Of a stretch of DNA of 21,044 nt, positions 92 to 15,211 are shown piece by piece. The position numbers and the translations under genes are program-made. The stretch spans positions 1 through 21,044 of the IMG/VR virus record IMGVR_UViG_3300032116_001539. The stretch is one strand, 5' to 3'. The DNA comes from a virus. Numbering within the stretch: the first letter of the stretch is position 1; each line of letters opens with the position of its first letter. The notes beneath the pieces are model-generated. The model had not been told where the DNA came from. It searched no databases and saw nothing but the letters and a program-made list of their open reading frames with translations.

Positions 92-120
92 AAAAAATGC
101 ACCCAAATGGTGCATTTTTT
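92..120 (-). terminator. Rho-independent terminator after the second portal gene
   Basis: Perfect hairpin with arms ATGCACC (97-103) and GGTGCAT (109-115) around a five-base loop. It is flanked by an A run on one side and a T run on the other, so it can work in both directions. The stop codon of the portal gene overlaps its edge. Confidence 0.88.
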
Positions 121-1732
121 AAAGAGTTAACTGAGGTGTTTCTTCCCCTTCACCTTCTGGTGGGGTTTCTCCTCCTTCAGGTTTTGATTTTTTTGCCTCC
201 TTTTCCTCATCTTCCTTGTATTGTTTATTCATTTTGATTTGTTCGGGAGACATACCAAGATATCTCTGAATGAGAAAATCGTTATCGAAATATGAAACTT
301 CCTCCTCCCCTATTTTTACTTTTAATTCGCTAAGTCCCTGTATAAATTCACTTTTTTTCTTAAGGTTGGTCATTTCAACCTGATCTTGAAATTCAAGATC
401 CCTATTATAAACTAATCCAACATTAGCCTTAAAGTTTCTATCCCTAGAGAGTTCTGGAAAATCTAAGCACATTTGTATATAAAGCGGTTTTACTAATATT
501 TCTTGAAATATTGATCTTATTCTAGTAAGGAATTTTTCAAATCTAATTTCATCTCTAGCTAATTGATCTATCGAAATCTGATAATTCCCAGGAGTTGAAT
601 TTCTTGATGAAAATCTTGCGTATGGTATTTTGGAATCCATTTTAAGTTTAGCAAAGAAATAAACAACATTCTCCATAACATTGAAATCCGGACCACTTGG
701 ATTAAGGGAAGATATATCGGGAGACGAACCGTTAGCTTCAGGAAAAAGATAATTTTTATAAAATTGTACTTTTGGTCTTCCGTTAATTGTTAATTCACCG
801 GATGCATCGTTAATGTTAATCTCCTCCTTGTAATTTGACATCAGTTGACCTAGAGTTTGCATAGCTTTTTGTGGAGACTGACTCCCAATCGGTATAATAA
901 ATTTCATCCTGTAGCTGGCATTCATAACATTCCATATAACTCTAGAATTTTCCATAATTCTTAAAATGTTATAGGATCTTACCAATCTTTCTATGTAACT
1001 TGTTCTACTTACAGAATTTCCTTTTGCATACGAAATATAAATAACCTGCTCATTTGTTAATTTTCTGAACATCTGTGGATTATTTGGATACTGTATCCAA
1101 AATTGTTTAAATTCATTTTCACCAACCTTTTCAACCACTGGTTGTAGCGATGTTGCATCTATTTCCTTAAATCCAATAATCTCTTTTCCCTTATTATCAT
1201 ATATTATCTCAAATGCTAAAAATCCATCGATAAGGAATTGTTTGAAATATTGCCAAGCTAATATACTGTTTTGAAACTGAAAAACGTTATATAACCTTGT
1301 GTAGTTTTCAGTAATTTTATTCTTCACTTTTTCTTTCAGATCAAGATTTGCAAAAGATGGATAAGCAAAGAAATTACGATCATCATAGGAAACGGCTTCA
1401 TCCGAAATAATATCCAAAATAAATTCTATTTCACCATTAAGTGAAAATTTTCTTAGATAGTTTCTTTTTTCAATGTAATCTTTGTCAAAATAGGCAATAT
1501 ATTTTCTTACCTTCGTATCTTGATATGATGTTGTCCAATGGAAAGCATCATTTTTAGTAAATCCTGTTCCCTCCTGATTGAAAAAAGCACCCTCGGTTTT
1601 ACCGATTGCTTGTGAGTTTCTAACAACCATATCGTCATATTGCATTCCGAATTTTGATATGTTGTTTAAGTTTTTAAGTATGTTACCTAATGCAGATTGA
1701 TTAGGGTTAAAAAAATCTAAAAATCCTGCCAT
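119..1732 (-). CDS. Portal protein, T4 gp20-like (second tandem copy)
   Basis: A 537-residue portal protein. Portal proteins form the dodecameric ring at the head vertex through which DNA is packaged and to which the neck and tail attach. Family signs are the central block with VRSYNILRIMENSRVIW and MNASYRMKF, the segment around GELTINGRPKVQFYKNY, and the C-terminal block with RDEIRFEKFLTRIRS followed by the FQEILVKPLYIQM helix, all in T4 gp20 order. The C-terminus is a charged, proline- and glycine-rich tail. It starts three bases after the stop of the upstream portal gene, so the two are co-transcribed. It is clearly paralogous to that gene along its whole length, and both end in a similar V/L-T-L tripeptide. 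Whether both copies enter one ring is unknown. Confidence 0.9.
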   Translation of the reverse strand: MAGFLDFFNPNQSALGNILKNLNNISKFGMQYDDMVVRNSQAIGKTEGAFFNQEGTGFTKNDAFHWTTSYQDTKVRKYIAYFDKDYIEKRNYLRKFSLNGEIEFILDIISDEAVSYDDRNFFAYPSFANLDLKEKVKNKITENYTRLYNVFQFQNSILAWQYFKQFLIDGFLAFEIIYDNKGKEIIGFKEIDATSLQPVVEKVGENEFKQFWIQYPNNPQMFRKLTNEQVIYISYAKGNSVSRTSYIERLVRSYNILRIMENSRVIWNVMNASYRMKFIIPIGSQSPQKAMQTLGQLMSNYKEEININDASGELTINGRPKVQFYKNYLFPEANGSSPDISSLNPSGPDFNVMENVVYFFAKLKMDSKIPYARFSSRNSTPGNYQISIDQLARDEIRFEKFLTRIRSIFQEILVKPLYIQMCLDFPELSRDRNFKANVGLVYNRDLEFQDQVEMTNLKKKSEFIQGLSELKVKIGEEEVSYFDNDFLIQRYLGMSPEQIKMNKQYKEDEEKEAKKSKPEGGETPPEGEGEETPQLTL

Positions 1733-1735
1733 CTT

Positions 1736-3343
1736 TTACAAAGTTACTTTAGGTTCTTCTTTCTCTTCCTCAGGGGAACCTCCCTTTTCTTCTTTTTTCT
1801 TTTTTGATTCCTCTTTTTTCTTTCTTTCTTTAGCTTCCTTATTAGCTATTATATCTTGTTGGGATAAACCTAAGAATTGCTCAATTAGAAATGCATTAGA
1901 AAAGAAAGGCTTTTCACCATCACCCATTAATGCTCCCATACCAGCTATTGCCTCTTTTCTTTTTCCTATCTTATCTATTTCTTGGTTAGCCTTAAATGGA
2001 TTGTCAGAAAAATAACTTAACCCTAACTGACTTCTGAAAAGGAAATCTTTTTCTAATGCTGGATATTTCTTGATCATCTGTATCCATAGCGGTTTTATAA
2101 GAATTTCTTGAAAAACAGATCTTAGTCTTTCTATGAATTTTGAGAATCTGATTTCCTCTTTGTCCAAACCTTCAGCACCGTTTGAATAAGTTGATGCACT
2201 CCCACCGTCAGGAGTGCTAAATCTTGATGCAGGAACCTTGGATTCCAATATGAATTTGTCAAAAAAGTAATTTAATGGGCCAGCATCATTAAGATTAGGA
2301 CCCTCAGTATTTATAGGCTCTATAGTTGGAGTTCCGTTAACTCCTGATGGCATTAAATAGTTTTTATAGAATTGAATTTTAGGTCTTCCGTCTATTGTTA
2401 ATTCCCCACTCTCGTCATTCAATTGAATATCTTCCTTATAAATACTCATTAATTCACCAAGAGTTTGCATTCCTTTTTGTTGTGATTTAGTTCCAATTGG
2501 AACAGTCATTTTCAATTTAAAGGAAGCGTTCATAACAGACCAGATAACACGGGTATATTCTATAATTCTAAGAATATTAAAAGGTCTTATAAGTCTCTCC
2601 ACATAGCTAATTCTAGAAACTGAGTTTCCTTTAGCATAAGAAATGTAAATTATTTGGGGATCATAGAGTACCCTTTTTTTCTTTGGGTCCTGCGGATATT
2701 GGTTCCATGTACTTACAAATGTTCCATCAATTTGTTTTTCAACACTCGGTACTAAAGTTATCGGGTCTAATTCTTTAAATCCAACTATTTCCTTTCCAGT
2801 ATTATCATAAACAATTTCAAAGGCTAAAAATCCATCAACTATGAATTGTCTGAAATATTGCCAAGCGGTAAGATCATCGGAGAATCCCCATATTTCATAT
2901 ATTTTTTTAAATACTTCGTATAAATCATCTTTTATCTTATCATTAACATCAGTTAAATCTATAAAATCAGGATAAGCAAAATAATTTGCGGGATCATAAG
3001 TAACTGATTCATCACATATAGTGTCAAGGATCCATTCTATCTCAGGATTTAAAGAAAACTTTCTCAAAAATTCCCTTTTTCCCTTATAATCTTTATCAAA
3101 ATAACCTATAAATTGTCTTTGAGATATGTCCTGTTTTGCCAGACTCCATATCATACTTTCGTCCTCTACATTTCCCTTGTTTTTGTTTAAGAAAGCAGCT
3201 TCAGTTACACCTATAGCTTGGGAATTCCTTATGACCATATCATCATATTTCATCCCGAATGTACTTAACTTTCTTACAGACTCCCTTATCCTTTGGATAA
3301 TAGGATTTTCGTTAGGGTTATTATTATCAGTAAATCCTGCCAT
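1736..3343 (-). CDS. Portal protein, T4 gp20-like (first tandem copy)
   Basis: A 535-residue portal protein, head-vertex ring component for DNA packaging and neck attachment. Conserved stretches shared with the next gene and with T4 gp20 include KYDDMVIRNSQAIG near residue 30, YISYAKGNSVSRISYVERL, RPFNILRIIEYTRVIW, GELTIDGRPKIQFYKNY and KEEIRFSKFIERLRSVFQEIL. The last 35 residues are a lysine/glutamate-rich tail. The ATG at 3343 lies 20 bases downstream of a GATATATA element, so this is the first gene of a late unit holding both portal genes and ending at the 92-120 hairpin. Nothing in the reading frame suggests decay: it is full length and keeps the same blocks as its twin. Confidence 0.9.
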   Translation of the reverse strand: MAGFTDNNNPNENPIIQRIRESVRKLSTFGMKYDDMVIRNSQAIGVTEAAFLNKNKGNVEDESMIWSLAKQDISQRQFIGYFDKDYKGKREFLRKFSLNPEIEWILDTICDESVTYDPANYFAYPDFIDLTDVNDKIKDDLYEVFKKIYEIWGFSDDLTAWQYFRQFIVDGFLAFEIVYDNTGKEIVGFKELDPITLVPSVEKQIDGTFVSTWNQYPQDPKKKRVLYDPQIIYISYAKGNSVSRISYVERLIRPFNILRIIEYTRVIWSVMNASFKLKMTVPIGTKSQQKGMQTLGELMSIYKEDIQLNDESGELTIDGRPKIQFYKNYLMPSGVNGTPTIEPINTEGPNLNDAGPLNYFFDKFILESKVPASRFSTPDGGSASTYSNGAEGLDKEEIRFSKFIERLRSVFQEILIKPLWIQMIKKYPALEKDFLFRSQLGLSYFSDNPFKANQEIDKIGKRKEAIAGMGALMGDGEKPFFSNAFLIEQFLGLSQQDIIANKEAKERKKKEESKKKKEEKGGSPEEEKEEPKVTL

Positions 3344-4275: not shown

Positions 4276-4316
4276 AAAAAAAGAATGTAGCTTTTTGTGC
4301 TACATTCTTTTTTTTT
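4276..4316 (-). terminator. Strong bidirectional terminator after the frameshift-extended gene
   Basis: Perfect arms GAATGTAGC (4283-4291) and GCTACATTC (4299-4307) around a seven-base loop, extended by seven A on one side and nine T on the other. The TAA that closes the -1-frame extension (4315-4317) abuts it, which argues that the extension, not the earlier TAG, is the natural 3' end of the gene. Confidence 0.92.
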
Positions 4317-4485
4317 ATTCTTTATTTTCGGATTCACCTTCAGTTTCTTCATCAAAACTAGGAAGTTTATTTAAAGCCTTACCGTCGGGAGCTTTAGCTA
4401 ACTTCCCTTTCGAAGATTGGTAAAATTTATCACCCGGTTTGTTCTGATTTTCACCCTTAGGAGCGAAATAGAAATTCCTACCTAG
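4315..4485 (-). CDS. -1-frame C-terminal extension (56 codons) of the 815-residue protein
   Basis: Immediately after the zero-frame TAG at 4484-4482, the -1 frame is open for 56 codons from CTA at 4485 to a TAA at 4315-4317. It reads LGRNFYFAPKGENQNK at the start and ENKE at the end, with no ATG of its own near the beginning. It contains LAKAPDGK, a further copy of the AP(G)DSK-type repeat that recurs in the zero-frame C-terminus, so it looks like a continuation of the same protein. Either a programmed -1 frameshift at the A-run, transcriptional slippage, or a homopolymer error in the assembly (one missing A) would join the two frames into about 871 residues. Confidence 0.72.
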   Translation of the reverse strand, partial: LGRNFYFAPKGENQNKPGDKFYQSSKGKLAKAPDGKALNKLPSFDEETEGESENKE

Positions 4486-6929
4486 TTTTTTTTTACTTCT
4501 TCAGATTCTCTAAGATTTATTCCAATTTCATAATTTTTATCAGATTCGTCTTTGCCTTTGAATCTCGTTTTTGTATTTTTTGAATCCGGAGCTTCTGCTA
4601 AATCATCTTCTCCCTCAACTTTGCTTTTTTCTTTTTTACTATCGCCTGGAGCTATTTGTAGGTTCTTTTTATTTTTTTCAGTTCCTTTTTCCAACTTACT
4701 GTCTCCTGGAGCTTTCGAAAGCGGGGTGTTTGATGTTTTATTACCAGTTTCTGTTTGGGCTAAATTTTTTTTTCCTTCATTCATTGTTCTATTATAACCA
4801 TGTAATGAATCCCCTCCCATTTCTATCTTTTCATTATCAGAACCTGGTGCTTTTGAAAATCCATGCATATTTGCAAGATTTTTCAGAATCTTTTTTTGCT
4901 CATCCTCAGATAAATCTGATTTATTTAAATTATTAGATTCCTTTACCTCCGTATCTGATTCATCATCGGAATATTTAGACTTCTCGTTATCGTTAGCTGC
5001 TTTATCAAGTGCTTCCTCAAGATCCGACATTTCATTTACAAAATAATTCTCAGTTTTTCCACTATCCAAAAGAACAGTATATCTTCCAGAATTTCCATCT
5101 ATTGATATTATCTTTCCGGTATCACCTGATTCTTTTATTTTAACAAATTTACCAATTCCAAATTTTTCATCCTCAAAAACTACAGTATTATCAATGGAAT
5201 TAATATCGGAGTCTATATTATTTAATTCTATGTTGATTTGGTTCCATTTTTCCCTAAGAACTTCCAATTCTCTTTCCATCATTTTGTGAGCTATTTGAAT
5301 TTCCTTAGAGTTTTTATACAATGGATTCGATTCCATTAAATTTTCCAATTTATTAATTTCGCCGTCAACTTTACTAATATTTTCTAGAATCTTATTTCTG
5401 TCATTAACCATTATAGACTTAACTCTAAATTCTCCTTCCAAGAATTCAGTTAATCCCTCTGAGATATCATACCTCATAAAGTTTTTCACCATGGATACCG
5501 CTTGAGATCCATTTACTTTATAAAGAGAATTTTCTCTCATTCCTTCGTTAATTTTTTGTAGGAATATTTGGTTTTTCCATTTAAGTAGATTTATTTGTAG
5601 TCCTTCGTAAATTTTGGATGTTATACTCTTAGCAAAATCAAGTTCTACTACATTGTGATAGTTTGAATATAATGTCATAACATCACTAACAACCTCCGAT
5701 TCATTGATACCGAAATAAGTTGCAGATTCCATTCCAAGAAGTTTAGCTAAACCTACAGTATCACCAAATCTAAGTTTGTCTTTTCCTAAGTAAACAGAGA
5801 TATTTTCAATTTCTTCAACTATTCTAACTACTTTTTTTCCAAAAGTGATAAATAAACCTTCCTCGTTGATTTTTATTCCACCTTTGTTAATTGTATTCAC
5901 TAATCTTAAATATCCCTCAGGTAAATGTGAAGCTTCCTTATCAGTTAATTTTTTTAAAGAAGTTTCACTAGCCTCAAAAATTGATTTACCGATATAGAAG
6001 AACGTTCTTCCATTCTCAAAAAGAACAGGAGAAAACACCTTCCCAACAAAAGATTCTTCCTGATTGGAAATCGGTAATGCCAATTTGCTAGAATTTTGTC
6101 CTTCATTTACATTTAAGAAATTAATTAAATTTCTAACAACCGGATTGAAATTGTATTTTTCAATATTTCTAACCAATAATCCATTTGATTTACCTTCTGA
6201 AACGAGCCATTCATTGAGGGTCTCTGTTAATTCAGAATAAAAGGAAGAGCTTCCACTATTTTTTATAGATTCAAGAACCTTAGAAACCTCTATCTCTCTT
6301 GAATATTCATTAAATTTTTTCTTAAGTTCTTTTGATATTTCAGCAACTGAAGAATCCCAAGAAAATGACTCCATTTCCGAAATAAAATTATGGATTAATG
6401 AAAATTCTGGAATTCCCTTATTTTCAATAAGGAATAAATATTGACTACAGAAATTCTTAACTTTTGGGTACGAATAGATTGAAGACTCAGATATTTTAGA
6501 TAAAGCAGATTTTATTCCAAGATCTCTTACTCCCTGAGATTTTACAAAAGATTTTGCTGAAGCATCGCCATGAGAAAGGGTATCTATTTTATTTACAAAA
6601 TCTAAAGAATCATCCAGACTCTCATTTATTGATTCATAAGATCCAGAATTACTAGCTCCTTCATTTTTAAGTCCTCCCCAAGATTCCATTAATGCTTGAG
6701 CAGCTTTTTTAGAAATTTCAGATTCCTCTCTTTTAATAGAATCTGCATGACTTCTAATCGAATTTTCCGGTGAATTTTGGTTCATTTCTATCTTATTATG
6801 TTCATTTATTTTTTCAATAAGCAAATTTTCAGAAACATCCTGACCTTTAAGGAAGCTTTCACATAAGGATCTTACCTCTTGGGATTTTGTTGTTTCCTTT
6901 AATTTTTTAACTTGATTTATAAATTCCAT
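4482..6929 (-). CDS. Large repeat-bearing protein of unknown function, probable virion or head-assembly component
   Basis: An 815-residue protein that I do not recognise. Residues 1-500 look mostly helical and serine/glutamate-rich; 505-580 look coiled-coil. Residues about 590-632 resemble a small KOW/SH3-like barrel (GKFVKIKESGDTGKIISIDG, then YTVLLDSGKTENYFV). From about 640 the chain is acidic, low in complexity and probably disordered, with repeats around Ala-Pro: SKAPGS (694), SKAPGDSK (740), QIAPGDSK (760) and AEAPDSK (780), the last three exactly 20 residues apart. The zero frame ends at TAG directly after a run of nine A and probably continues in the -1 frame to 4315. It has its own GATATATA element 23 bases before the ATG, so it is likely a late product. 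An internal head or scaffold-related role is only a guess from its place near the portal genes. Confidence 0.85.
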   Translation of the reverse strand: MEFINQVKKLKETTKSQEVRSLCESFLKGQDVSENLLIEKINEHNKIEMNQNSPENSIRSHADSIKREESEISKKAAQALMESWGGLKNEGASNSGSYESINESLDDSLDFVNKIDTLSHGDASAKSFVKSQGVRDLGIKSALSKISESSIYSYPKVKNFCSQYLFLIENKGIPEFSLIHNFISEMESFSWDSSVAEISKELKKKFNEYSREIEVSKVLESIKNSGSSSFYSELTETLNEWLVSEGKSNGLLVRNIEKYNFNPVVRNLINFLNVNEGQNSSKLALPISNQEESFVGKVFSPVLFENGRTFFYIGKSIFEASETSLKKLTDKEASHLPEGYLRLVNTINKGGIKINEEGLFITFGKKVVRIVEEIENISVYLGKDKLRFGDTVGLAKLLGMESATYFGINESEVVSDVMTLYSNYHNVVELDFAKSITSKIYEGLQINLLKWKNQIFLQKINEGMRENSLYKVNGSQAVSMVKNFMRYDISEGLTEFLEGEFRVKSIMVNDRNKILENISKVDGEINKLENLMESNPLYKNSKEIQIAHKMMERELEVLREKWNQINIELNNIDSDINSIDNTVVFEDEKFGIGKFVKIKESGDTGKIISIDGNSGRYTVLLDSGKTENYFVNEMSDLEEALDKAANDNEKSKYSDDESDTEVKESNNLNKSDLSEDEQKKILKNLANMHGFSKAPGSDNEKIEMGGDSLHGYNRTMNEGKKNLAQTETGNKTSNTPLSKAPGDSKLEKGTEKNKKNLQIAPGDSKKEKSKVEGEDDLAEAPDSKNTKTRFKGKDESDKNYEIGINLRESEEVKKN
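4485..4491 (-). other. Candidate programmed -1 frameshift heptamer A AAA AAC
   Basis: On the minus strand the zero-frame codons are GTA AAA AAA AAC TAG, so the classic heptamer A AAA AAC is in the correct phase and the next codon is a stop. A short stem, TAGGA with TCCTA around a 13-base loop, can form four to five bases downstream, though it is weak. The nine-A run could also cause polymerase slippage or a sequencing indel. Confidence 0.6.
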
Positions 6930-13941: not shown

Positions 13942-14130
13942 TTACTTACTAAATGAGAATACTTGTTTCAAACCATCGGCAGATTGTGATTCCATATTTT
14001 CAACTTCTATTTTTTTATTGAGATTATCTAAGAAAATTTGGTATTCATAATATGGTATATTTTCTATCCAATTCATATCAACACCATGTTCATAAAAAAG
14101 TCTGAATTTAATTGCCAAGTAATTCTCCAA
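13942..14130 (-). CDS. Small ORF overlapping the gp26-like gene; possible frameshift partner (tail assembly chaperone)
   Basis: A 62-codon frame that overlaps the end of the preceding gene by 23 bases, in the +1 phase relative to it. The only start near its beginning is TTG at 14130; the first ATG comes 18 codons later (MNWIENIPYYEY). The sequence before that ATG (LAIKFRLFYEHGVD) looks like real protein, and the frame is open upstream as far as 14175. The order of tube gene, overlapping pair, tape-measure-like gene is that of tail assembly chaperone pairs, where the second frame is reached by ribosomal frameshifting. Here that would need a +1 or -2 shift. Independent initiation at TTG or the internal ATG cannot be ruled out. 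Function is inferred from position. Confidence 0.6.
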   Translation of the reverse strand: MENYLAIKFRLFYEHGVDMNWIENIPYYEYQIFLDNLNKKIEVENMESQSADGLKQVFSFSK

Positions 14131-15211
14131 AGATATCTGAAATAACGAAAAGAGATCTGATTCCGGAGGGAAAACTTATGTCCGCTGTGACCTCCTCACC
14201 ACACCGCGGACAAACTTGGCTAACTTCTAATATTGTTCCTATTCTTATTAAATTCGAAAGCTCAAAATATAAACTAAACTCCTCTTTAGTCCAATAATCA
14301 GATTCTCTCATTTTATTCAATATATTGTCATCAGTTAATCCTCTCCATTCTTTTATAATAAATGGAGCAATTTTTATAAATCCTTCATCAACCTCAATTG
14401 ACCTGCTCTTACAATAAAGTATAAATTTAGTTAGAATCTCATTAATCCCTATACTCGGTACACTCATTTCAATTTTCCTTCCAATTTTCGGAACATCAAA
14501 TATGAATGACCTCGTTGATTGGTTATAATATTTTAATATTTTATCCTCAATAGAATAAGAGTTTAAAACCCCGGTTCTAAGTTCAATACCATTTCCAAAA
14601 GGACAATCATCAAGGGATTTACATTTTTTATTAGGTATTAATATTATTGAATTCTCCCCACTAACAAAAGTTAAATCCCTTATAGCCATAATAACAAAAA
14701 ATCTATCCTCCTGCTTTAGATCCTTGTAAGAAACCACACCCTCATTTGGATATTCCATTCTCATGCACCTATCTAAAACATACGAAAGCTTTTCCTCAAG
14801 ATCTAATCTATCCGCATCATCTATAGTTGAGAAATATCTAATTTCCTTTACTTCAGCTGGTCTTATAGCTATTTTTGTTCCTACTGGATAAAACATTCCT
14901 TTAGATGGCATGATTGAAACCGGAAGATTTTTCCAACCTATATCAGAAGTTTTATTTTCGTTTAATGTCGATGCTTTTCCGAGAGAATTTGTTTTTATAT
15001 CCTCCTTTGATTCTATCTCCGCCTCAATTTTATTTATAATGGGATCTTCCTTTAATTTTTTATTCTCGGTTTCATCCAAGTTTAATTGATTATTTTGAGG
15101 TGTATTTTCATTCTCAATTTTATCCTCAGAATTCACAAGATCCGGATTATCATATTCAAATCCGCTTTCGATTTCTTTTCTTCTTAATATTTCCTCTGGT
15201 GAAATGTCCAT
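14108..15211 (-). CDS. T4 gp26-like baseplate hub/tail assembly protein
   Basis: A 367-residue protein resembling the T4 baseplate protein family (gp26), involved in building the baseplate hub or chaperoning the tail. Residues 1-95 are charged, Asn/Glu-rich and probably disordered. The domain starts near LPVSIMPSKGMFYPVGTKI and continues with the helical, Tyr/Arg-rich section EEKLSYVLDRCMRM...DLKQEDRFFVIMAIRDLTF typical of this family. Four cysteines could bind zinc: C197 and C203 (CKSLDDC) and C334 and C337 (CPRCGEE). It is preceded by an imperfect GATATATA element 19 bases from the ATG and by the terminator of the tube genes, so it heads its own unit. A small ORF overlaps its end. The family call rests on remembered patterns, not a search. 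Confidence 0.7.
   Translation of the reverse strand: MDISPEEILRRKEIESGFEYDNPDLVNSEDKIENENTPQNNQLNLDETENKKLKEDPIINKIEAEIESKEDIKTNSLGKASTLNENKTSDIGWKNLPVSIMPSKGMFYPVGTKIAIRPAEVKEIRYFSTIDDADRLDLEEKLSYVLDRCMRMEYPNEGVVSYKDLKQEDRFFVIMAIRDLTFVSGENSIILIPNKKCKSLDDCPFGNGIELRTGVLNSYSIEDKILKYYNQSTRSFIFDVPKIGRKIEMSVPSIGINEILTKFILYCKSRSIEVDEGFIKIAPFIIKEWRGLTDDNILNKMRESDYWTKEEFSLYFELSNLIRIGTILEVSQVCPRCGEEVTADISFPSGIRSLFVISDIFGELLGN

Follow-up and report, generated by a model that had tools for sequence, protein, structure and literature searches.

The dnaX gene of Thermus thermophilus is subject to transcriptional slippage on a run of nine A residues (A9) (PMC1088944; PMC3711429). Nine A is a usual threshold in bacteria for slippage of RNA polymerase, and in a large share of bacterial genomes A/T runs are visibly selected against once they reach nine nucleotides (PMC1088944). 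In phages, frameshifted C-terminal extensions are known for coat and tail proteins, namely those of the T3/T7 capsid and of phages A2, A118 and PSA (reviewed in PMC5009743). Outside transposons, dnaX, prfB and the tail chaperones, conserved recoding has rarely been described in DNA phages, and in the literature on jumbo and huge phages, of which the coverage was incomplete, no frameshift of the A9/stop kind was found, and none for huge T4-like phages.

The stretch of DNA analysed here, hereafter the window, is an IMG/VR fragment of 21,044 bases, which carries on its minus strand a zero-frame ORF of 815 amino acids (4482–6929). From the ORF, its predicted structure and its relatives, the encoded protein consists of an ordered core (approximately residues 1–650) and a disordered Ala-Pro-repeat tail ending in ESEEVKKN. 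The 3′ end of the ORF reads GAA GAA GTA AAA AAA AAC TAG; the run comprises exactly nine A (4486–4494, a T run on the plus strand) and, together with the C at 4485, contains the in-phase heptamer A AAA AAC, with the zero-frame stop TAG (4482–4484) directly 3′ of it. The –1 frame is open from only a few codons ahead of the run, lacks ATG, GTG and TTG, and extends from CTA (4483–4485) for 56 residues, LGRNFYFAPKGENQNKPGDKFYQSSKGKLAKAPDGKALNKLPSFDEETEGESENKE (4318–4485), up to a TAA stop (4315–4317). Directly after this stop, an inverted self-match (4276–4314) forms a terminator-like hairpin with T runs on both sides, a feature also found in the relatives. An Ala-Pro motif is present both in the zero-frame tail and in the –1 extension. 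The preliminary description of this DNA had pointed to the heptamer with its neighbouring stop, to a 56-codon frame lacking a start codon and ending at a terminator, and to a further Ala-Pro copy within it, and all of these are borne out. A second A9 run lies in the same gene at about 4768 (minus strand), within GGA AAA AAA AAT TTA and 283 nt before the zero-frame stop, where a –1 slip would truncate the 815-aa protein.

A protein scan of viral contigs yielded two close relatives and an alignment-based scan yielded 44 loci, while a scan of genome contigs for relatives and a search for DNA similarity to named phages found none. In all the IMG/VR relatives that reach the C-terminus (37/37; about 54–66% identical, on contigs of up to 434 kb), the A9 run (A10 in L013) is accompanied by the extension in the –1 frame. 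The run, the frame relation, the extension, its end point and the missing start codon are all recurrent, and the recurrence of this arrangement in 37 relatives is far beyond chance. The extension has the conserved form [LV]SRNFYFAPK..NQN.PG..F....G.LSKAP.GK followed by an acidic tail, and is under purifying selection, with a mean pS of 0.68, a mean pN of 0.21 and a pN/pS of about 0.3 over the first 40 columns of 29 unique extensions. Both the site and its product are conserved in homologues under purifying selection, as would be expected of a programmed ribosomal –1 frameshift of the type of dnaX and insertion sequences (IS). In the relatives the long form ends just upstream of the terminator-like hairpin, with the exception of L007, which runs on, and the zero-frame stop adjoins the A run everywhere except in L029, whose zero-frame stop comes 12 codons further on. 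Two loci are interrupted within the gene core, L031 by an isolated in-frame TAG at codon 255 and L038 by an internal frame break at codon 463, possibly reflecting assembly error or decay; L038 was excluded from the core analysis and L031 was included only with the stop masked.

These data bear on several explanations other than recoding. Homopolymers are error-prone, and an indel here would imply a gene with a single frame; the preliminary description had kept as its main alternative a homopolymer indel in the assembly or a recent mutation. The same run length and frame relation are, however, found in 37 relatives from many metagenomes at high synonymous divergence, the stop codon itself is conserved, the extension is under purifying selection and the –1 state is ancestral (see below), so that this alternative is excluded, a sequencing or assembly indel retaining a negligible probability. 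Stop-codon readthrough was also rejected, as the zero frame past the stop is of variable length and it is not the frame that is conserved. The extension might instead be an independent small gene, with translation through re-initiation or from a start codon of its own; in L069, L091 and L102 it does form a separate ATG-started ORF. Against this, the –1 ORF of the window and of most –1 loci has no ATG, GTG or TTG, the few ATGs present elsewhere sit well past the conserved NFYFAPK, and the ORF usually opens just a few codons before the run; for the –1 loci an independent gene is very improbable. The proposal of a single gene encoding a short form and a long form extended in the –1 frame is instead supported, the A9 run, the stop and the extension all being conserved throughout a deep family.

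Codon usage around the site provides evidence on what is being maintained. Among the 28 unique standard loci, 14 have GTA and 14 have TTA as codon 0, which is followed by AAA AAA, then by AAC (23 loci) or AAG (5 loci), and finally by a stop that is TAA in 27/28 and TAG in one, the window. In the standard loci the base 3′ of the run is always C or G, T being absent, yet AAT represents 66% of the Asn codons. In the –1 frame the zero-frame stop occupies the wobble base of a Leu or Val codon, and CTA, although it accounts for only 13% of the Leu codons in these genes, is the sole Leu codon at the stop position; moreover, the stop is retained where the following residue differs (G for S in the window, through TAG, and T for S in L031). 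Because TAA or TAG is kept although CTA is so infrequent, the adjacent zero-frame stop is, on this codon-usage evidence, under selection. A similar argument holds for the run itself. A tree of the core proteins shows at least five changes (Val/Leu) in the first base of codon 0 and none in its wobble A, while GTA is 29% of the Val codons and TTA 43% of the Leu codons in these genes, and just 1 of 80 fully conserved V/L/T/P/A/G/S columns shows no wobble change. By this comparison the nine-A run is selected beyond the heptamer, since a ribosomal heptamer would not need the wobble A of codon 0.

Further arrangements of the locus, searched for with a DNA pattern for the extension, allow its history to be traced. 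L048 and L074 have A10 and still require a –1 shift; in L067, L068, L073 and L106, as well as in L098, the extension is in frame and the A9 is retained; in L069, L091 and L102 the main gene ends earlier and the extension is a separate ORF beginning MSSNKILDFFSYINEENADVKKNLSRNFYF..., again with A9. The –1 state occurs on both sides of the midpoint root of the tree, whereas the in-frame and split states are nested together, with L029 and L048, in one well-supported subclade; because of this nesting, the –1 arrangement is, on the tree, ancestral and the in-frame fusion and the split gene are derived within that subclade. Homologues having a single uninterrupted frame, which the preliminary description had listed as evidence against frameshifting, thus exist in small number, but they are derived and keep the A9 run. 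Were the in-frame form to slip by –1, decoding would reach a stop after a few codons and a short form would result, as in Thermus dnaX (PMC1088944). The coexistence of A9 and A10 in the family (L013, L048) and of in-frame relatives could also suggest phase variation at the DNA level, by which replication slippage would alter the length of the run and toggle the extension between phage generations. This is hardly to be expected, considering that none of the standard-register loci is in the A10 “on” state, that the A10 loci need a shift too, and that the in-frame loci differ in the bases 3′ of the run and not in its length.

Taken together, these observations make it very probable that a conserved functional recoding takes place at the A9 run and stop of this huge-phage gene. 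Unslipped decoding would give a short form ending in ...VKKN, and a net –1 shift on the A9 the long form, which would gain about 56 residues (NFYFAPK...LSKAPxGK and the acidic tail) and end before the terminator. We infer that the two isoforms are both produced and jointly required, the long one making up a subfraction.

As for the mechanism, slippage can be attributed either to RNA polymerase or to the ribosome, with the same two isoforms either way. If these phages use the host RNA polymerase, as is apparently the case, its stuttering on the A9 would yield A10 transcripts. No phage RNA polymerase β′ gene was found in seven of these genomes or records, and therefore the host enzyme probably transcribes the gene. 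Transcriptional slippage is associated with A or T runs of at least eight to nine nucleotides, and nine or ten A are present in every locus, the length of the run being conserved beyond the need of the heptamer. Alternatively, the Lys and Asn (or Lys-Lys) tRNAs would slip on the ribosome from AAA AAC to AAA AAA, perhaps aided by the slow stop codon that follows. In favour of this, an in-phase A AAA AA[C/G/A] heptamer with an open –1 frame is found at every shifted locus, the adjacent stop is conserved, and A_AAA_AAC has been proven to work in one IS cluster for which no stimulator is established (PMC4066793). The direction of the shift has the same bearing: among the orthologues only –1, in-frame or split arrangements are seen, and a direction that is always –1 is the rule for calling ribosomal shifting (PMC3711429). 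The constant direction favours the ribosome because families with confirmed polymerase slippage commonly show both directions (PMC3711429). The restriction of the base 3′ of the run to C or G in the standard loci likewise hints at a codon-anticodon constraint, which counts against the polymerase, as does the occurrence of further A9 runs inside the same gene (in the window and in L004), showing that A9 alone is tolerated elsewhere.

On the other side, the elements usually accompanying ribosomal frameshifting are not conserved. For a 3′ stem-loop stimulator, mean z-scores were –0.39 to 0.05 versus –0.75 to 0.09 in control windows (pseudoknots being outside the model), upstream RNA structure above the control was not found, and a search of Rfam gave no match. 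Upstream Shine-Dalgarno-like sequences (GAGG/AGGA) occur in a minority of loci only and their position is not conserved. Furthermore, A_AAA_AAC is far less shift-prone than A_AAA_AAG in E. coli (PMC5009743). The textbook ribosomal –1 heptamer of the preliminary description therefore holds in part: it is in phase and the direction is constant, but a conserved structure and Shine-Dalgarno are lacking and the run is held at nine A. Because of these missing stimulators, the nine-A constraint and the weakness of A_AAA_AAC in E. coli, slippage of RNA polymerase is at least as likely as a ribosomal slip. We lean slightly towards the polymerase, to which we give about an even chance, the ribosomal mechanism being a serious but somewhat less probable alternative; both may contribute.

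The identity of the 815-aa protein can be approached through its structure and neighbourhood. For the window protein, PHROG and Pfam gave no family above cut-off. AlphaFold predicts an ordered core that ends near residue 650 and combines helical, beta and coiled-coil regions with an SH3-like module, followed by a disordered tail; no secondary structure is predicted for the extension, in which no Ig-like domain and no PDB match were found, the only Pfam match being weak and unrelated. The Foldseek matches of the AlphaFold model are uncharacterised proteins of Tenacibaculum phages and other myoviruses, and a profile search of Tenacibaculum phage PTm1 and Flavobacterium phage MaF61 gave no sequence match. 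The best PDB match (E 9.5e-4, TM 0.09–0.12) is not usable as an identity, the others being small SH3/Tudor-like matches only. A remote homologue is present in the 462-kb phage LR756500, without the Ala-Pro tail and without the extension; at that locus (L047, LR756500.1 229861–238886) as read from the translation, the sigma gene has a TnpB-like ORF upstream of it and an HNH-type one downstream. In members of the subclade, one or two PG_binding_1 (peptidoglycan-binding) domains are inserted after about residue 120 (L102:5097–7892 and L068:2564–5194; E 2e-26 and 4e-13), which suggests a contact of these proteins with the cell wall. The neighbours of the 815-aa gene are a late-sigma-like gene, a head-closure gene and portal genes. 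Two similar portal-like genes lie in tandem in the window (119–1732 and 1736–3343, minus strand; 537 and 535 aa), the first corresponding to PHROG 213 (portal). Since the portal and the sheath indicate an affinity with Lak-type, Tenacibaculum and Flavobacterium phages, the hosts of these T4-like huge phages are probably Bacteroidota.

In the proposed scheme, the long form would extend a disordered, multivalent tail by two further Ala-Pro motifs and an acidic end, and the protein bearing this tail might be associated with the envelope or the virion. More tentatively, a huge T4-like phage lineage may set the C-terminal isoform ratio of an assembly or virion protein by stuttering of the host polymerase on an invariant A9, and evolution may have re-engineered the arrangement as a shifted gene, as an in-frame fusion with the run kept (where slippage would now truncate) and as two split genes. 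The natural series of shifted, in-frame and split genes makes the role and the ratio of the long form directly testable, and the site offers a clean test of polymerase versus ribosome slippage, as the two can be told apart by the junction residue (K or N) and by transcript length. Standard gene finders would give only the short form in such genomes.

A second conserved frame-shift site was observed in the same window. A 367-aa gene (14108–15211, minus strand), located between the tail tube genes and a tape-measure-like gene, that is, in the position of a tail assembly chaperone, overlaps a conserved +1 frame (13942–14130), ENFFDIKFRLWKEH...ESIPFYEYQIWIDKLN...FSFGK. The zero frame ends in CTT TGA, a prfB-type +1 site (CUU_UGA), in 22/24 unique contexts (L123–L162), and the +1 frame near this stop is mostly without a start codon. 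The window itself reads CTT GGC AAT TAA, and L162 is also without the TGA. T4-like chaperones have been argued to use a mechanism other than frameshifting (Vladimirov, 2022, as cited in PMC10885494).

When compared with the known systems, the A9 locus shares features with several of them. With the E. coli dnaX and IS sites (A AAA AAG, A AAA AAC) it has in common the in-phase A AAA AAC heptamer and the exclusive –1 direction, but it differs from them in having no Shine-Dalgarno and no conserved hairpin, in a run held at nine A and in the directly adjacent stop. As in the T3/T7 capsid, A2, A118 and PSA, a fraction of a phage protein is extended C-terminally from another frame (here by prediction) and in-frame relatives exist; unlike in those cases, the extension is not recognisably Ig-like and has no predicted fold, the site is A9, and the role in the virion is putative. 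The production of a long form by a phage –1 frameshift recalls, by analogy, the gpG/gpGT tail assembly chaperone of lambda, but its counterpart here is not the 815-aa gene, as the chaperone position is taken by the 367-aa gene at 14108–15211 with its own frame overlap. In the case of Thermus dnaX, the unslipped product is short in the window and most relatives, unlike that of dnaX, the protein is unrelated, and slippage is here a prediction from sequence. The likeness to dnaX lies in the nine A in the coding strand, in the two isoforms with different C-termini and in the stop near the run, and the in-frame relatives L067 and L098 also share its polarity, with the unslipped product as the long form.
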